From contig NZ_PDWP01000010.1 of assembly GCF_010093235.1 (NCBI RefSeq), forward strand, positions 1 to 64,000: 64,000 bases of DNA, read 5' to 3'. Position 1 is the stretch's first letter. Each line of letters opens with the position of its first letter. The position numbers were made by a program, and so were the translations under genes. This document shows, one piece after another, positions 2,485-64,000 of this stretch. This stretch comes from Pseudoxanthomonas suwonensis (GTDB lineage Bacteria; Pseudomonadota; Gammaproteobacteria; Xanthomonadales; Xanthomonadaceae). The notes under the pieces are model-generated. The model was given only the letters and a program-made list of their open reading frames with translations, was not told the DNA's origin and did not search any database.

Positions 2485-3122
2485 TCCGAGTCTGCCTGGT
2501 CGACGACCAGACCCTGGTGCGCCAGGGCATCAAGTCCCTGCTGGCCCTGGACGGGAGCATCGAGGTGGTGGCCGAGGCCGGCGATGGCCGCCAGGCCGTG
2601 GAGATGATCCCGCAGGTCGCCCCGGACGTGGTCCTGATGGACATGCGCATGCCGGTGATGTCCGGGCTGGAGGCGCTGCAGACCCTGTCCCAGGCCGGCC
2701 AGCTGCCGCCGACCATCATCCTGACCACCTTCGACGACGACCAGCTGGTGCTGGCCGGGCTGAAGGCAGGCGCCCGCGGCTACCTGCTCAAGGACGTGTC
2801 GCTGGAGCAGCTGGTGGGGGCGATCCAGGCCGTGGCCAGCGGCGGCTCGCTGGTGCAGCCGGCGGTGACCCAGCGCCTGCTGTCGGGCCTGGAACACATG
2901 CGCAACGACTTCGTCAGCCTGGACCGCCCGGATCCGCTGACCGACCGCGAGACCGAGATCCTGCGGCTGATGGCCTCCGGCTTCTCCAACAAGGAGATCG
3001 CCAATTCCCTGGGCGTGGCCGAGGGCACGATCAAGAACCACGTGTCCAACATCTTGAGCAAGCTGGGCGTGCGCGACCGCACGCGGGCCGTGCTCAAGGC
3101 CTTCGAGCTGCAGCTGGTCTGA
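2481..3122 (+). CDS. NarL/FixJ-type response regulator
   Basis: DNA-binding response regulator of 213 residues, partner of the overlapping kinase. The receiver domain has the acidic pair (VDD) and the phospho-acceptor Asp at about 54 (VLMDMRMP), with the conserved Thr and Lys in ILTTF and LLKDV. The LuxR-type helix-turn-helix spans about residues 150-205 (LTDRETEILRLMASGFSNKE). A GC-rich hairpin follows at 3143-3158 (GGCGGG-CTGT-CCCGCC), possibly the end of the operon. Confidence 0.95.
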   Translation: MIRVCLVDDQTLVRQGIKSLLALDGSIEVVAEAGDGRQAVEMIPQVAPDVVLMDMRMPVMSGLEALQTLSQAGQLPPTIILTTFDDDQLVLAGLKAGARGYLLKDVSLEQLVGAIQAVASGGSLVQPAVTQRLLSGLEHMRNDFVSLDRPDPLTDRETEILRLMASGFSNKEIANSLGVAEGTIKNHVSNILSKLGVRDRTRAVLKAFELQLV

Positions 3123-3429
3123 AATCCGCGCGCGGTGGATCGGGCGGGCTGTCCCGCCGGCCGCCGCCCGCAGGGGCGGCCCGATGCGGGTGGCGACATT
3201 CCCCACGCCTGCGTATGGAGCTGGAAGCCGCGCTTGGGGCAGGTTTTCCCCGGCACGTGGGGGAGACTGGAAGCCTTGTGCCACCAGCGTCCGCGTCTGG
3301 GCGGCATGTAAGAATTCCGTTCAATCGCGGGCCCGTTCCTGTATTCGGCTGCGCGTACGCCAAGAACCCTGTTACGATTCGCGGCTCGCATCGCAAATAC
3401 GCCGTGGAATCGGCCCCGGAGACTCCTGA
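3123..3429. other. Intergenic region, no gene seen
   Basis: About 300 bases separate the response regulator from the SRPBCC gene. A short GC hairpin at 3143-3158 lies just after the regulator stop. Part of the stretch is less GC-rich (3290-3400) and presumably holds the promoter of the next gene, but I could not pick a convincing -35/-10 pair. No coding frame is credible. Confidence 0.5.
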
Positions 3430-5756: not shown

Positions 5757-6299
5757 TCAGCCGCGCAGCGACATCCGCAGCAGGGTGTCGTCGTGGCGGA
5801 CGTGGTGGTGGTAGATCGCCGCGGCCGCATGCAGGCCCACCAGCCAGTAGCCGGCCAAGGCGATGCCTTCGTGCCAGCTCTCCAGCCGGTCGCCCAGCTC
5901 CGGCCGCAGGTCGAACAGCACCGGCAGCGACCAGCCGCCGATCGCCGGCGCGTGGCCCTTGGCGTTGAGGATCAGGTAGCCCAGCACCGGCATGGACAGC
6001 ATCAGCGCGTACAGCGACAGCGCGACCCCCCTGGCCAGCAGCACCTGCCACATGGGCGGCTCCGGCATGATCGGCGGGGTGGGGCTGGTGGCGCGCAGCG
6101 CCAGGCGCACCCAGGTCACGAAGAACACCGCCAGCCCGAGGAAGAAGTGCGAGGTCTTCATCAGCTCGCGCGGGGCGCTGCCCCTCGGGAAGAATCCGCG
6201 CAGCTCCATGGTCGCGTACACGGCGACCAGCAGCACCAGGGTCAGCCAGTGCAGGGCGATGAGCGAGGGGCGGTAGCGGGATGCAGGAGCCTGGACCAT
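5757..6299 (-). CDS. Cytochrome b561 family protein
   Basis: Four-helix di-haem membrane cytochrome of 180 residues. Candidate haem-ligand histidines lie in ALHWLT, MKTSHFF, ESWHEG and GLHAAA. The IYHHHV stretch and a short C-terminus are typical of CybB-like proteins, which move electrons between quinol and periplasmic acceptors such as superoxide. An FNR-like box at 6359-6372 and a GATACT -10 at the correct distance lie upstream, suggesting low-oxygen control. Confidence 0.9.
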   Translation of the reverse strand: MVQAPASRYRPSLIALHWLTLVLLVAVYATMELRGFFPRGSAPRELMKTSHFFLGLAVFFVTWVRLALRATSPTPPIMPEPPMWQVLLARGVALSLYALMLSMPVLGYLILNAKGHAPAIGGWSLPVLFDLRPELGDRLESWHEGIALAGYWLVGLHAAAAIYHHHVRHDDTLLRMSLRG

Positions 6300-6358: not shown

Positions 6359-6372
6359 TTGATCAGGCTCAA
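6359..6372 (-). promoter_or_regulatory. FNR/ANR-like box upstream of cytochrome b561
   Basis: TTGATCAGGCTCAA matches the FNR consensus TTGAT-N4-ATCAA at 9 of 10 defined bases. Read on the minus strand, a 22-base gap separates it from GATACT (6336-6331). That is the spacing of class II FNR promoters, where the box centres on -41.5. The cytochrome b561 start lies 60 bases from the box. Confidence 0.65.
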
Positions 6373-10909: not shown

Positions 10910-11563
10910 TCAGAGCGGCGCGGCGAAGCGGGCGCCGGCCAGGCGGATGCTCCACACCAGCTCGACCATCGCCAGGTTGTTGAGCAGCGGCTCGCCCGCC
11001 AGCACCAGCCAGTAGCCGCTGCCGTCGATCCACAGCGGGACGAAGGACCATTCCGGCAACAGCATGTCCGGGTCGTTGTGGAACGCGACCCGCTGCGCGC
11101 CGGGCCAGCCGCGGCGGGCCTGGCGGGCGACGAACGAGGAATAGTCCGCCGCCGCCGCGCTGAGGGTCTCGGCCAGGTCCTGGTCCAGGCCGGAATGGCC
11201 CAGGCAGAAGCCGCTGTCGGACGCCAGCACCGCGCGGCGTTCGCCGGACAGCGGGGCGATCACGTGCTGGGCGAAGTCGCCCAGGCGCACGTCCGGCGCC
11301 GGCACCTGGCGGCGCAGGAGCTGCACCCACTGCTTTTCCTGCAGCTGCTGCAGCATGCGCCCGCTGCCATCGTGCTCCTGGCGCCAGCGCGCCAGCTCCA
11401 TCGCCTGCGGGCCGGCCAGCAGCGCCTGCACCGCGCGCTGCGCCGGGCCCGGCTCGGGCGAGGAGAACCCGTGCAGCGCGCCGCGCGGGGGGGGCAGCAG
11501 CCACTTCGCGGCCGCGTCGGCGGGGGTGTCGTTGGAGGCGGTGTCGACGAGGTCCAGGCTCAT
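10910..11563 (-). CDS. Unknown protein, last gene of roadblock/PAS operon
   Basis: Soluble protein of 217 residues that I do not recognise. It is Leu/Gln-rich in the first half (ELARWRQEHDGSGRMLQQLQ), with two tryptophan-rich patches later (LLPEWSFVPLWIDGSGYWL). No signal peptide or catalytic motif is obvious. Its ATG overlaps the stop of the previous gene by ATGA (11560-11563), so production is coupled to the rest of the operon. The pattern of short beta segments near the end could be a sensory or adaptor domain. Confidence 0.6.
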   Translation of the reverse strand: MSLDLVDTASNDTPADAAAKWLLPPPRGALHGFSSPEPGPAQRAVQALLAGPQAMELARWRQEHDGSGRMLQQLQEKQWVQLLRRQVPAPDVRLGDFAQHVIAPLSGERRAVLASDSGFCLGHSGLDQDLAETLSAAAADYSSFVARQARRGWPGAQRVAFHNDPDMLLPEWSFVPLWIDGSGYWLVLAGEPLLNNLAMVELVWSIRLAGARFAAPL

Positions 11564-12183
11564 GGGCATCCGTTGCGAGGTGAGGGCGCTTCCGCGCGGT
11601 CGCCGATGGCGGCGTACTGTTCCAGCCAGTCGGCGACCCGTTCCCAGCGGTCGCCCACGGCGATCTCGTGCCGGCGCAGGTCGCGGCTGGCGAGCATGAA
11701 GGCGTACTTGTCCTGGCACGACACGCAGTGCTCGAGGAACTCGTGCTCGATGCGGGCGGCCTGCAGCGGATCGCCGTCCAGCAGCGCCTCCACCACCTGC
11801 GTGGCCAGCCGGCGCGAATGGTCGGGGCTGGCGCGGCGCACGCGCGCCGGTACGTCGCCCGAGGGCTGGGCGAACACGCTCCAGCGGGTCGCCAGGGCGG
11901 TGATCGCCGGCAGGGAATGGCCGTGCGCGTGGCGGGCGAAGGCCTCGGCCACGTACGGCGTCAGCCGGGCAGAGGCCAGGTGCAGCGCGGCCTGGCGCAG
12001 GGCGGTGTCGGCCCGTGGCAGGGCCACGAACAGGTCGGCCAGCGCGCCCTGCACCGGCTCGGTATCGCCCAGCTGCAGCGCCGCCTGCAGCCGCGCCAGG
12101 TGCGCTGCCGGATCCTGCGGGGCACGGGCCACGGCACAGGTGCGCTGGCGGAAGTCGCGGCGTGCGCTCTGCAAGGGGTCCAT
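11560..12183 (-). CDS. Unknown helical protein in roadblock/PAS operon
   Basis: Soluble, mostly helical, Ala- and Arg-rich protein of 207 residues. A HCVSCQDKY patch at about 159-167 could hold a metal or a disulphide, with conserved-looking DRWERVADWLEQY near the end. No nucleotide-binding motif is visible, so it is not the MglA-type GTPase usually paired with roadblock proteins. It begins one base after the stop of the PhnD-like gene. Repeated helices suggest a TPR-like scaffold, but this is a guess. Confidence 0.6.
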   Translation of the reverse strand: MDPLQSARRDFRQRTCAVARAPQDPAAHLARLQAALQLGDTEPVQGALADLFVALPRADTALRQAALHLASARLTPYVAEAFARHAHGHSLPAITALATRWSVFAQPSGDVPARVRRASPDHSRRLATQVVEALLDGDPLQAARIEHEFLEHCVSCQDKYAFMLASRDLRRHEIAVGDRWERVADWLEQYAAIGDRAEAPSPRNGCP

Positions 12184-12184
12184 G

Positions 12185-12937
12185 TCAGTCCAGCAGGGTG
12201 TCCATCAGGTCGATCATGAATTCGGCGTCCTCCAGCTCCATGGGCTCGAAGCCGCGCGGCAGGCCCAGCGCCTGCAGCACCTGGGCATCCCCGGCATCGT
12301 CCGGATCGACCGCCAGCAGCGCCTGCGCCAGCGGCTGCAGGTCGCCGCCCACGCGCGGATGCGCCAGCAGCACGTGGCTGATGTCGCGCAGCTTGCTCTC
12401 CACCAGGACCTTGAGCCGCTCGCGGGTGATGCGGGCCAGGGCGTGGTAGGCAGAAGCGAGGAAGAAGCCCGCATCGACCTGGCCCGAAAGCGTCATGCGC
12501 GCGGCGGCCTGGTAGCTGGCCACTTCCTCCCACTGCGCGTCCTGCTCGGTGAGGTCGGCCGGCTCCAGCAGGCGCAGGCCGATCAGGCGCACGTCGCGGT
12601 TGTCGGTCACCGCGATCCGGCAGCCAGGGCGCAGGTCCTCGACCGTGGCCAGCGGGGAGCCGGCGGCGGTGGCGATCACCATCTCGTTGGAATGCGCGGC
12701 CGGGCGGGCGAAGGCGCGGTAGCCCTGCTCGCGGATCATGGACGTGGCGTCGAACGGATTGGCGTAGACCAGGTCGGCCAGGCCGTCGGCCAGCATCTGC
12801 GCCTGTTCGCGCGCGTCGGCCGGCATCAGCAGGTGCAGGCGCGTGCCGGAGCGGTGCTGCAGCACGGTGCCGAGCATGTACCAGCCGGGGAAGTTATCCG
12901 GCGCGAAGTCGGGCGCCACCAGCAGGTTGAGGGTCAT
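12185..12937 (-). CDS. PhnD-like substrate-binding domain protein without signal peptide
   Basis: Protein of 250 residues matching the PhnD/PBP type 2 solute-binding fold: LLVAPDFAPDN strand, DLVYANPFD, AVTDNRDVRLIGLRLLEP and AGFFLASAYHAL. Family members are normally exported phosphonate/phosphite-binding proteins next to ABC transporters. Here the protein starts directly at the first beta strand with no signal sequence or lipobox, and no permease or ATPase is near. It is therefore probably cytoplasmic and used as a ligand sensor. Its start overlaps the PAS gene stop by ATGA (12934-12937). Confidence 0.75.
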   Translation of the reverse strand: MTLNLLVAPDFAPDNFPGWYMLGTVLQHRSGTRLHLLMPADAREQAQMLADGLADLVYANPFDATSMIREQGYRAFARPAAHSNEMVIATAAGSPLATVEDLRPGCRIAVTDNRDVRLIGLRLLEPADLTEQDAQWEEVASYQAAARMTLSGQVDAGFFLASAYHALARITRERLKVLVESKLRDISHVLLAHPRVGGDLQPLAQALLAVDPDDAGDAQVLQALGLPRGFEPMELEDAEFMIDLMDTLLD

Positions 12938-13437
12938 GCCGTCACCTCCGCCTGCTCCTGTTCCAGCCACTGCCGGTAGAGCGGCAGCAGTTCCTCGATG
13001 CGCCGCCGCGAGGGCTTGCGCCGCACCGAGGTGTAGCCGACCACCTGGCCGCCGCGCACGTTGGGCAGGGCGGTGGCGTAGACCCAGTAGTGCCGGCCGT
13101 CCTTGCGCAGGTTCTTGACGTAGCCATGCCACTTGCGGCCGTCCTTGAGCGTGGCCCACAGGTCGGCGAAGGCGGCGCGCGGCATCTCCGGGTGGCGCAG
13201 GATGCTGTGCGGCGCCCCGATCAGCTCCTCGCGGCTGTAGCCGCTGAGCTCGACGAAGGCTTCGTTGGCGTGGGTGATCACCCCGTCCAGGTCGGTGCGG
13301 GAGACGATCAGCCGCCCGTCCGGATAGGGCACTTCCTCGTCGGTCCAGTACACGGTGCGGCGGGTGCCGTCGTGGCAGGTATGCACGGCGCTGCGGTGCG
13401 GGCCGGCGGGCGGGGTCATGTCCGGGAGGCGGCTCAT
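12934..13437 (-). CDS. Stand-alone Aer-type PAS redox sensor
   Basis: Protein of 167 residues with one PAS domain of the Aer aerotaxis type (TDLDGVITHANEAFVELSGY, then GYTSVRRKPSR). Residues that bind FAD in E. coli Aer are kept in LRHPEMPRAAFADLWATL: Arg-His and the Trp are present, while the Asp of RHPD is Glu. Aer normally continues into HAMP and methyl-accepting domains, which are missing here. It probably senses redox state or oxygen through FAD and signals to its operon partners. It lies 8 bases after the roadblock gene. Confidence 0.82.
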   Translation of the reverse strand: MSRLPDMTPPAGPHRSAVHTCHDGTRRTVYWTDEEVPYPDGRLIVSRTDLDGVITHANEAFVELSGYSREELIGAPHSILRHPEMPRAAFADLWATLKDGRKWHGYVKNLRKDGRHYWVYATALPNVRGGQVVGYTSVRRKPSRRRIEELLPLYRQWLEQEQAEVTA

Positions 13438-13445
13438 GCGCGACC

Positions 13446-13835
13446 TCAGACGATGCGGCCGAGGACCTGGGCGGCCCGCTTGATGTCCAGGAACGCGAGG
13501 CCGAGCTTGACCTCGGCGCGGGTCAGCACGGTCAGCACCGCCTCGTCGCCGGCGGCGGTCATGATCACGTAGCCGTCCTCGCCTTGGACCAGGACGCGCT
13601 CCAGGCGGCCGCGGCCGAGTTCGCGCGCGGTGCGTTCGCCCAGCGAGAGCAGGGCCGCGGACATGGCGCCGATGCGGTCCTCGTCCATGTTCTGCGGCAT
13701 GGCCGCGTCGATCAGCAGGCCGTCGATGGAAATGAGCGCGGAAGCCTCGATGTCGGCGCTGGAGCTGGTGAGGTCTTCCAGGGTCTGCCGGATCTGCGCG
13801 GCGCGGGGGTTGTGCTGGAGAGGGATGGCGTTCAT
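13446..13835 (-). CDS. Roadblock/LC7 domain protein
   Basis: Small adaptor of 129 residues in which the roadblock/LC7 fold covers nearly everything (IEASALISIDGLLIDAAMP, then VLVQGEDGYVIMTAAGDEAVLTVL). Bacterial members such as MglB act on Ras-like GTPases in polarity and gliding. No GTPase gene lies nearby. It is the first gene of a five-gene operon. The ATG at 13835 sits only about 36 bases from a perfect FNR box, leaving almost no leader. An MglA-type partner would have to be encoded elsewhere. Confidence 0.88.
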   Translation of the reverse strand: MNAIPLQHNPRAAQIRQTLEDLTSSSADIEASALISIDGLLIDAAMPQNMDEDRIGAMSAALLSLGERTARELGRGRLERVLVQGEDGYVIMTAAGDEAVLTVLTRAEVKLGLAFLDIKRAAQVLGRIV

Positions 13836-13870
13836 GGCGCGAATTGCATCACGCGCCCCCGCCCCCCCTT

Positions 13871-13884
13871 TTGATCAGGATCAA
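13871..13884 (-). promoter_or_regulatory. Perfect FNR/ANR-like box upstream of roadblock operon
   Basis: TTGATCAGGATCAA is a perfect match to TTGAT-N4-ATCAA. It overlaps the stop codon of the upstream EEP-domain gene. A 22-base gap leads to TGCAAT (13848-13843), a fair -10. Transcription would then begin almost at the roadblock ATG, implying a leaderless or nearly leaderless message. Confidence 0.7.
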
Positions 13885-61994: not shown

Positions 61995-62474
61995 TCAGTG
62001 GGCGTGGGAATGCCCGGGGAACAGGCGGTGCAGGGTGCGCGACAGCCAGCCGCCCTGCTGGTGCTCGCGGGTGAAGCGGTCCAGGTGCCGCCGCACCTGC
62101 TCCGAATAGGCCTTGTCGTCGTTGCGGATGTGGTTGAACAGCCAGCGCGAGAGCATGCTCTTGAGTTCGTCGACCACGTCCTCCCCGGCCTGGTAGCGCA
62201 TCCGGTACTCGGAGACGCGCTTGGTGAACACCTCGTGCACCCGCTTGTGGGCGGCGCAGAACGGGTAGCCGGCCTCCTCCATCAGCTCCTCCTCGAAGGC
62301 GAAGTGGGAGAGGGTGTAGTCCACCAGTTCGTCCAGCACCTCGCTCACGGCCAGCGCGGAGGCACCGGTCTGCGCCTGGTGCAGCTGGTTGATCATCGCC
62401 ACGATGCGGCGATGTTGTTCGTCGATCACCTCGATGCCGGTATCGAGGTCGTCCTGCCAGATCATCAGCGACAT
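61995..62474 (-). CDS. Bacteriohemerythrin (copy 1)
   Basis: Diiron oxygen-binding protein of 159 residues. All ligands are visible: [30 protein letters not shown] and [12 protein letters not shown] (the H-x4-D). It has a His-rich C-terminus (FPGHSHAH). The ATG at 62474 follows a TAGCCT -10 and a perfect FNR box. It probably stores or senses oxygen under micro-oxic conditions. It is a clear paralogue of the next gene. Confidence 0.93.
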
Positions 62475-62531: not shown

Positions 62532-62545
62532 TTGATCGGGATCAA
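62532..62545 (-). promoter_or_regulatory. Perfect FNR/ANR-like box upstream of hemerythrin copy 1
   Basis: TTGATCGGGATCAA is a perfect palindromic match. A 22-base gap separates it from TAGCCT (62509-62504), exactly class II spacing. It overlaps the stop codon of hemerythrin copy 2. Confidence 0.75.
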
Positions 62546-63003
62546 ACGCGCGGGCCGAACAGGCGGGCGAGCGTGGAGGCCATCCAGCCGGCGCCCTCCT
62601 GGCGACGGGCGAAGCGCTCCAGGTGCCGGCGTACCTGTTCCGTGTATGCCCGGTCGTCATTGCGGATGTGGTTGAACAGCCACGTCGAGAGCAGGTCGCG
62701 CAGCTCGTCGACCACGTCCTCGCCGGCGCGGTGGCGCTCCTGGTAGCGGAGGACCCGGCGGGCGAACATGTCGTGGATCCGCCGGTGCGCGTCGGTGAGC
62801 GGGTAGCCGGCCACCGCCATCAGCTCCTCCTCGAAGGCGAAGTGCGACTGGGTGTAGTCGAGCAGGTCGGCGATCACTTCGCCCGCCGCCTCCGGCGCGC
62901 CTTCGGCCGGCTGGTTGATCATCGCCACGATGCGCCGGTGCTGCTGGTCGATCACGTCGATGCCGGTATCCAGGTCGTCCTGCCAGGTGATGGTCCGGGA
63001 CAT
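62542..63003 (-). CDS. Bacteriohemerythrin (copy 2)
   Basis: Second hemerythrin of 153 residues with the same ligand set: [30 protein letters not shown] and [12 protein letters not shown]. It differs from copy 1 in a shorter loop (residues 30-45) and a basic C-terminus without the His tail. Its own near-perfect FNR box and the same TAGCCT -10 precede it, so the gene and its promoter were duplicated as a unit. Confidence 0.93.
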
Positions 63004-63068: not shown

Positions 63069-63082
63069 TTGATCCTGGTCAA
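63069..63082 (-). promoter_or_regulatory. FNR/ANR-like box upstream of hemerythrin copy 2
   Basis: TTGATCCTGGTCAA matches 9 of 10 defined bases. A 23-base gap leads to TAGCCT (63045-63040), the same -10 as in copy 1. The hemerythrin start lies 66 bases away. Confidence 0.7.
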
Positions 63083-63114: not shown

Positions 63115-64000
63115 TCAGGCCGCGTCGACGATGCGGTTGCGGCCGCCGGCCTTGGCCAGGTAGAGGCGGCGGTCGGCTTCGGCCAGCAGGCTGTGCAGGG
63201 TATCGCCCACCCGCGCGTTGCAGGCGCCGATGCTCACCGACAGGCGCAGCTCGCCCTGCTCGACCGGTACCCGCAGGTCCTCCACCCGCAGGCGCAGACG
63301 CTCCAGGTGGCCATTGAGCGCGGTCCCTTCCAGGCCCGGCAGCAGCATGCAGAACTCCTCGCCGCCGAAGCGGGCGATGTGGTCCTGCGGGCGGGCGTGG
63401 GTGGCGATCGCGTGGGCAACCGCACGCAGGGCGCGGTCGCCGGTCTCGTGGCCCCAGGTGTCGTTGACGTGCTTGAAGTGGTCCAGGTCGAGCATGACCA
63501 TCGCCAGCGGCTGGCGCACGTCGCGCATACGCGGCACCAGGCGTTCGGCCTGGTCGAGGAAGTGGCGGCGGTTGGGCAGGCCGGTGAGGAAGTCGCGGGT
63601 GGCCAGGGCCTGCAGGCTGCCGATCAGCTCCAGCTGGTCCACGTTCTGCGAGACCCGGCAGAAGAACTCCTCGCGCGAGTACGGCTTGCGCAGGAAGTCG
63701 TTGGCGCCGTTCTTGAGGAAGCGCGCGACCAGGCCGGGGTCGTCGCGGCCGGAAACGCCGATTACCGCCATGCGGTCGCGCGCGCGCAGGGCGCGCAGGC
63801 GGCGGGTCAGCTCGATGCCCTGCATGCCGGGCATCTCCTGGTCGACGATGGCCAGGCGGATGGTCGGATCGGCTTCCACCGCGGCCAGTGCGCGGTCGCC
63901 GTCCGGCGCCTGCACCACGCGGTAGCCGAACATCTCCAGCAGCAGGCCGGCGTGGGCGCGCGCGCTGGGGGAGTCGTCCACCACCAGGGCCGAGATCCGG
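63115..64000 (-). CDS. REC-GGDEF diguanylate cyclase (partial, start off window)
   Basis: Response-regulator diguanylate cyclase whose start lies beyond the window end. The receiver domain shows VVDDSPSARAHA and the phospho-acceptor Asp in AIVDQEMPGMQG. The GGDEF domain has TRDFLTGLPNRRHFLDQAER, MLDLDHFKHVNDTWGHETGD and the active motif FGGEEF. A product-inhibition I site (RPQD) lies 5 residues before it. It therefore makes c-di-GMP when phosphorylated. It ends about 33 bases after the FNR box region of hemerythrin copy 2. Confidence 0.93.
   Translation of the reverse strand, partial: RISALVVDDSPSARAHAGLLLEMFGYRVVQAPDGDRALAAVEADPTIRLAIVDQEMPGMQGIELTRRLRALRARDRMAVIGVSGRDDPGLVARFLKNGANDFLRKPYSREEFFCRVSQNVDQLELIGSLQALATRDFLTGLPNRRHFLDQAERLVPRMRDVRQPLAMVMLDLDHFKHVNDTWGHETGDRALRAVAHAIATHARPQDHIARFGGEEFCMLLPGLEGTALNGHLERLRLRVEDLRVPVEQGELRLSVSIGACNARVGDTLHSLLAEADRRLYLAKAGGRNRIVDAA

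Follow-up and report, generated by a model that had tools for sequence, protein, structure and literature searches.

A conserved roadblock operon without MglA in Pseudoxanthomonas suwonensis, a probable oxygen-controlled derivative of Group 3 MglA signalling modules

Regulation of small GTPases is the main role known for bacterial roadblock proteins of the MglB kind. A Group 3 MglA system, as set out in the main text of Wuichet and Sogaard-Andersen (2014, PMC4316618), comprises MglA, one or two MglB proteins and a protein of unknown function with a receiver-like N-terminus, a variable linker and a C-terminal winged helix, and its GTPase is marked by GTPGQ in motif G3, the missing lysine of NKxD in G4 and DAR in G5. 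Here we describe a five-gene operon of Pseudoxanthomonas suwonensis that resembles such a system stripped of its GTPase. It lies on contig NZ_PDWP01000010.1 of assembly GCF_010093235.1, whose positions 1 to 64,000 (64,000 nucleotides (nt), hereafter the window) were analysed, and encodes a roadblock/LC7 protein (Robl), a stand-alone PAS protein akin to that of the aerotaxis receptor Aer, a PhnD-like solute-binding protein and two further proteins, U4 and U5. We put at about 0.6 the probability that a Group 3 MglA signalling module gave rise to this operon by reduction and that it is controlled by oxygen. The reading rests on computed gene content, kinship, missing genes, promoter, residues that contact flavin adenine dinucleotide (FAD) and the predicted fold of U5.

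Three features of Group 3 systems recur in relatives of the operon: the marked GTPase, a receiver-like protein whose linker varies, and roadblock proteins, of which one is recognised by sequence and the second by predicted fold. The window, in contrast, has neither the GTPase nor the receiver/winged-helix protein, and of the Group 3 set it holds the one or two roadblock proteins, Robl by Pfam and U5 by predicted fold only. The main text of PMC4316618 makes no mention of PAS, phosphonate, aerotaxis, solute-binding, redox or Fnr. Actinobacterial conservons (Group 2 MglA, CvnA-D), as outlined in parts of PMC4316618 and PMC13343842, are likewise operons that join an MglB-type roadblock to a sensor and a protein of unknown function, but they carry a histidine kinase-like sensor (CvnA) and a GTPase (CvnD), whereas the window operon has a stand-alone PAS protein and no GTPase or kinase among its five genes. 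A roadblock is also common to the Myxococcus MglA/MglB system, in which, according to sections of PMC7519303, the TPR protein SgmX is an MglA effector for type IV pili; the window operon, unlike that system, lacks MglA. In Snodgrassella, as reported in sections of PMC11112851, an orphan mglB encodes an MglB-type protein in a host with a Group 3 MglA, and its mutation changed soft-agar colony edges, which the authors ascribe to altered type IV pilus-dependent motility; mglA is kept there, in contrast to the window, and those sections yielded no PAS-PhnD link. We found no description of the present operon in the portion of the open-licence literature covered, and one may be in print elsewhere. 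As far as our searches went, the kind is known (roadblock/MglA signalling) and the variant is new: GTPase-less, apparently FNR-driven and equipped with a pair of Aer-type PAS and PhnD-like proteins.

The five-gene operon is real and conserved. An earlier reading of the DNA, made from its letters alone (the sequence-only reading), had taken five near-touching or overlapping genes to act as a single unit. All five minus-strand open reading frames (ORFs) are present and intact (Table 1), both of the ATGA overlaps it reported (12934-12937 and 11560-11563) were confirmed, and the remaining intergenic gaps are 8 nt and 1 nt. The roadblock, PAS and PhnD-like domains it proposed are each named by Pfam (Robl_LC7, E 1.5e-18, 66.7 bits against a cut-off of 23; PAS_3, E 4.8e-17; Phosphonate-bd, E 1e-38), and Robl also matches roadblocks in the PDB. 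Its two unrecognised proteins do stay below the Pfam family cut-offs and have no NCBIfam match, but a second roadblock domain is predicted in U5.

Table 1. Positions in the window of the operon genes and their putative promoter elements
Feature	Position	Strand	Basis
Roadblock/LC7 protein Robl, MglB-like, 129 aa	13446..13835	-	Pfam, PDB roadblocks
Stand-alone Aer-type PAS protein, 167 aa, predicted FAD redox sensor	12934..13437	-	Pfam, alignment to Aer
PhnD-like solute-binding fold without signal peptide, 250 aa	12185..12937	-	Pfam, PDB profile match
U4, all-helical, 207 aa, perhaps TPR-like; family of the first gene of the Thiothrix/Sphaerotilus operon	11560..12183	-	Model, hhalign
U5, N-terminal extension and predicted divergent roadblock domain (about residues 85-217)	10910..11563	-	AlphaFold2 model, Foldseek
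FNR box TTGATCCTGATCAA, overlapping the stop codon of the upstream gene	13871..13884	-	Consensus match
-10-like hexamer TGCAAT, exactly 22 nt 3' of the FNR box	13843..13848	-	Spacing across loci

Co-inheritance of the gene set likewise supports the single unit. Across 198 genomes of the family, searched for U4, U5 and MglA, U4 occurs in 16 and U5 in 16, with both in 15; the extra U4 match is a short stretch with a stop codon and the extra U5 match is partial (in G088). A scan for the PhnD-like protein in named genome contigs yielded 248 confirmed loci, and among the best 80 of these the PAS gene is found in 78, Robl in 71, U5 in 70 and U4 in 60 (BLASTP, E 1e-3). The two PAS-less loci (L051, L054) lie on contigs that start just before PhnD, and wherever the starts are usable (77 loci) PAS ends no more than 48 nt from PhnD. 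The scattering of homologues that the sequence-only reading had thought would count against it is seen in part: the PAS-PhnD pair occurs without Robl, U4 and U5 in seven of the 80 loci (L071, L073, L077, L080, L081, L093, L094), and the gene set otherwise stays together. Robl, PAS and PhnD-like proteins are found in company far beyond the genus, and in the window's clade U4, U5 and the FNR box accompany them, an association that exceeds chance. In L071 (967-2535) and L078 (8349-9083 and 10001-10747) the PAS gene or Robl has another PhnD-like gene next to it, that of L078 having just 24% identity to the window's.

Clustering of neighbouring ORFs added two members to the module, a small Ras-like MglA-type GTPase and a receiver-like protein, and the resulting seven-gene form is carried by some Comamonadaceae, Moraxella, Thiothrix and Sphaerotilus. 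In Ottowia-like Comamonadaceae and Moraxella its genes run Robl-PAS-PhnD-U4-receiver-MglA-U5, and in Thiothrix, Sphaerotilus and their relatives they run U4-receiver-MglA-U5-Robl-PAS-PhnD; the two orders are circular permutations of each other. The first gene of the Thiothrix-type operon is placed in the U4 family because hhalign pairs the two at 97.7% (E 2e-12). An MglA-type GTPase sits inside the cluster in 33 of the 80 loci, and the 18 of these that were aligned (178-195 amino acids) have invariant PGQ and DAR and lack the NKxD lysine of G4, with GAPGQ rather than GTPGQ in G3 in two (L069, L074). Since PGQ and DAR are kept and the lysine is missing, marks given in the main text of PMC4316618, we assign the relatives' GTPase to Group 3 MglA. 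In an alignment of the receiver-like protein that took in 28 of 50 clustered ORFs, the C-terminal region and a tail of amphipathic appearance are retained by 17 of the 18 MglA-bearing rows (the exception being L058) and by none of the ten rows without MglA. One Moraxella-like module (L065) comes from a record titled Streptomyces cinereus that groups with Moraxella in the tree and is probably mislabelled or contaminated.

Taken together, these loci form a graded series that runs from the full module, through a shortened receiver-like protein with (L058) or without MglA, to the absence of both genes, as in the window's clade. An intermediate-looking locus in Rhodoferax ferrireducens (L058, 12270-12803) has MglA, a shortened receiver-like protein and a perfect FNR box. 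Such a series would also suit a decaying remnant of an MglA module with no function of its own, as would the lack of U4, U5, PAS and PhnD-like genes from two of nine sampled genomes of the window's own genus (G010, G060). We consider decay very improbable, because the five ORFs of the window are intact, the FNR box has no mismatch in any of the 17 other loci examined of this clade and family, and mean identity within MglA-lacking loci is close to that within MglA-bearing ones (PAS 0.70 against 0.70, U5 0.59/0.59, U4 0.49/0.46, PhnD 0.68/0.71, Robl 0.79/0.88; loci before L075, with L071, L073 and, on the MglA-lacking side, cut-off loci set aside).

The absence of an MglA-type GTPase, claimed earlier for the operon, extends to the window, where the best tblastn match has E 0.27, and to its genome, where a model that finds MglA in 51 of the 198 family genomes gave no match at E <= 10. 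The receiver-like protein has no match in the window better than E 0.027, that one lying elsewhere, and the rest of the genome was not searched for it. A single Robl_LC7 match at E <= 0.01 was found in the genome, and U5 was not among the matches. The roadblock proteins may instead still serve a GTPase encoded elsewhere, too diverged for the MglA model or of another family, as could be argued from the Asp-Gly pair of Robl: D38-G39 is present in the window, invariant in 30 rows and taken to be the MglB pair whose Asp lies within 5 Å of MglA in the main text of PMC4316618. Three of the 15 module carriers also have MglA elsewhere in the genome (G053, G155, G172), and an Anaerolineales locus (L093, 4553-6331) has a dynamin-type GTPase gene (Dynamin_N, E 2.2e-25) directly after PAS-PhnD, overlapping it if the longest start is right. 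We nevertheless think a GTPase elsewhere unlikely, given the empty search of the window's genome, the 12 of 15 carriers without MglA (it is no commoner in carriers than in the other family genomes, 48 of 183) and a difference at position 67 of Robl between loci with and without MglA.

At that position all 31 MglA-bearing loci have D, and 33 of the 38 lacking MglA have E, as does the window's Robl; the exceptions are L026, L064, L065 and L078 (D) and L082 (S). On a tree built from Robl, PAS and PhnD (69 rows) the residue changes four times, and a test of independent pairs never runs in the opposite direction, with too few events for significance. Presence of MglA changes seven times on the same tree, or six without three contigs that end inside the cluster and leave its absence unsure (L059, L064, L082; taken as lacking MglA in the tree test and in the count of 33 of 38, and dropped from the residue-67 pair test). 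Loss of MglA is our preferred account of these changes because the GTPase has the same position in the cluster in distant lineages.

What the operon might sense is suggested first by its PAS protein, the family profile of which matches the PAS domain of E. coli Aer (PDB 8dik) at E 1.6e-44. The FAD contacts H53, R57, W70, N85 and R115 of Aer, taken with its stabilising glycine from parts of PMC9668731, correspond to H77, R81, W94, N109 and R139 here, and Gly28 to G52; all but H77 are invariant in 32 rows, and the position of Aer M69 is Leu. The Aer numbering comes from our alignment and agrees with the residues in those parts of PMC9668731 except at T27, which is Q in the aligned chain. The flavin-type, Aer-like PAS of the sequence-only reading, and the FAD pocket on which it depended, therefore hold at the level of alignment, with the contacts mostly kept, and the protein probably senses redox state through FAD. 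In contrast to Aer it has no HAMP, membrane or chemoreceptor part and, standing alone, must signal to partner proteins. Two further observations come from an MglA-bearing locus (L084), where a protoglobin gene (2614-3183; Pfam E 1.5e-27) lies between Robl and PAS and a chemoreceptor gene lies past PhnD on the opposite strand.

The PhnD-like protein belongs to the Pfam family of the PhnD/PtxB solute-binding proteins, and its fold starts at residue 7, too early for a signal peptide to precede it, which bears out the absence of an export signal noted earlier. A small PhnD-type ligand, phosphite or phosphonate, might accordingly be what the operon senses or handles, with redox secondary: the Pfam match is strong, and PtxB is the sole sequence match of the family profile in the PDB at E <= 0.001, albeit a weak one (6.3e-6). 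We judge this quite improbable, however, since the S-T-S-S stretch of PtxB, which we take to be its ligand-binding site, aligns to D-V in the PhnD-like family, since the five genes include no transporter, and since the longest invariant run of the protein (F240-D246, FMIDLMD, invariant in 31 rows) lies in a strongly conserved C-terminal tail, EDAEFMIDLMDTLLD. Export signal and transporter being absent, the protein falls outside PhnD-type transport.

The two remaining proteins were approached through structure models. U5, modelled with AlphaFold2 from its family alignment (mean predicted local distance difference test score (pLDDT) 89.1), gave 11 Foldseek matches in the PDB at E <= 0.001, every one a roadblock or MglB chain (3kye, 1j3w, 6hjm), with template modelling scores of 0.30-0.39 by query and 0.47-0.62 by target; the best, 3kye, has E 3.9e-4, probability 1.00 and scores of 0.39 and 0.62. 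The Pfam roadblock model reaches 12.9 bits on U5 (E 0.092) against its cut-off of 23. U5 is thus predicted to be a second, divergent roadblock domain protein. The U4 model is helical (mean pLDDT 91.6), and the protein is perhaps TPR-like.

The operon is probably induced at low oxygen through FNR, as the sequence-only reading had proposed from a box that is indeed a perfect match to the FNR consensus; spacing, an FNR-like protein and further boxes now add to it. The window has four sites with at most one mismatch to the consensus against 0.19 expected, and the genome has eight perfect sites against none in a reversed control. A -10 hexamer 22 nt downstream of the box is the spacing of a class II FNR promoter, and T..AAT stands exactly 22 nt 3' of the box in 20 of the 29 sequences whose box has two mismatches or fewer, and at any other offset from 14 to 39 in at most two; the pattern was picked after inspection of the sequences, which are mutually related, so that the offset control is a partial guard, and it recurs at 22 nt in seven of seven further family genomes. 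The ATG of Robl follows 7 nt behind the hexamer, so the operon mRNA is probably nearly leaderless, with a predicted start at about 13835-13836. By eye, the gene upstream of the operon encodes an endonuclease/exonuclease/phosphatase-like protein.

Upstream regions were scanned for the box in 68 of the 80 loci (L044 has too little upstream DNA, and 11, including L041 and L047, lack Robl or a usable Robl start). The window's clade comprises 11 rows (Shimodaira-Hasegawa approximate likelihood-ratio support 97), the ten other named loci being titled Pseudoxanthomonas, Xanthomonas, Stenotrophomonas and Luteimonas, and the box is perfect in all ten and in the seven further family genomes; all 15 module carriers of the family sample have it. 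Shuffled upstream sequences, which preserve base make-up only, came within one mismatch in 69 of 13,600 trials. Upstream of the U4-first operons (12 loci) and PAS-first pairs (seven loci) there is no box at this level. Other perfect boxes of the genome precede ccoN, nirK, hemF and a bacteriohemerythrin gene (all over NCBIfam cut-offs), a UspA-like and a chemoreceptor gene (neither reaching its cut-off) and an ORF resembling a short-chain dehydrogenase. Three CRP-family proteins in the genome exceed the cut-off, two of them having, by eye, cysteine clusters and an E-T-V-S-R helix: L114, with C-x2-C-x5-C and a later Cys and beside a HemN-like ORF, is the preferred FNR candidate, and L113, with C-x2-C-x7-C, the second. 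A class II-spaced box together with an FNR-like protein bearing iron-sulfur cysteines places the operon in the putative FNR regulon.

From these parts a mechanism can be proposed, in which falling oxygen would lead FNR to switch on the operon, and the FAD-holding PAS protein would report how reduced the cell is, with the PhnD-like protein as its partner, either ligand sensor or scaffold. Both would signal onto a platform of the two roadblock proteins, Robl and U5, whose state U4 might hand on to a target, possibly type IV pili or another polar machine. We hold only tentatively, at slightly less than even odds, the stronger form of this idea, namely a GTPase-free, FNR-controlled complex in which two roadblocks are the platform for a flavin redox sensor and for a solute-binding protein of the cytoplasm, with residue 67 marking the change and MglA lost more than once. 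Pili or polarity as output are a guess based on kinship; three PilT-family ATPases over the cut-off in the window's genome make type IV pili an available one. In Sphaerotilus and Thiothrix types a bactofilin gene adjoins the module or lies one gene off, and the ORF after PhnD is FimV-like by eye (among the Pfam matches shown there was no LysM or FimV); these neighbours give a hint of polarity or cytoskeleton, no more.

Several results weigh against a reduced, oxygen-controlled Group 3 derivative. We infer, rather than observe, gene loss (as opposed to genes never gained), the complex, its ligand, the direction of signalling and the output, and the tree counts of MglA changes fit loss and gain alike. 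The switch between D67 and E67 rests on few events (independent pairs, median p 0.5). Sequence-level kinship of U5 with Robl was tried with hhalign and failed (0.3%), so that roadblock membership of U5 comes from the structure model, and U4 has no confident fold in Foldseek, the best match being the TPR protein MamA at E 0.62. A box with at most one mismatch occurs, in raw counts, in 18 of 35 MglA-lacking and two of 16 MglA-bearing Robl-first loci, and in none of 17 with Robl inside the operon, but a link between box and absence of MglA was not significant in tree-aware independent pairs (median p 1); we do not claim it, because this test fails and ten of the 18 boxed loci are one clade. Outside the window's clade, eight of 25 MglA-lacking Robl-first loci have such a box, one of them perfect, and L058 combines a perfect box with MglA. 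No box within one mismatch precedes the operon in the Lysobacteraceae-titled L060 and L062, their kin L059, Lampropedia or Corticibacter; the absence of MglA therefore does not require FNR control.

Should the reading of a reduced Group 3 module hold, a conserved and regulated operon with GTPase-less roadblocks would imply that a roadblock platform is able to signal by itself. Five genes are common to the forms with and without the GTPase, so that the contribution of MglA can be tested naturally by comparing the two. For Group 3 MglA systems, for which no input sensor is named in the sections of PMC4316618 drawn on here, the PAS-PhnD pair would also supply a candidate input, cell redox state.

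Elsewhere in the window, tandem bacteriohemerythrin-like genes (61995-62471 and 62542-63003, minus strand; the second named by eye) each have an FNR-like box upstream, perfect at 62532-62545 and with one mismatch at 63069-63082, and adjoin a gene for a GGDEF protein at 63115-63984 (by eye). A further FNR-like box with one mismatch (6359-6372) lies upstream of an ORF that by eye resembles cytochrome b561 (5757-6299, minus strand).

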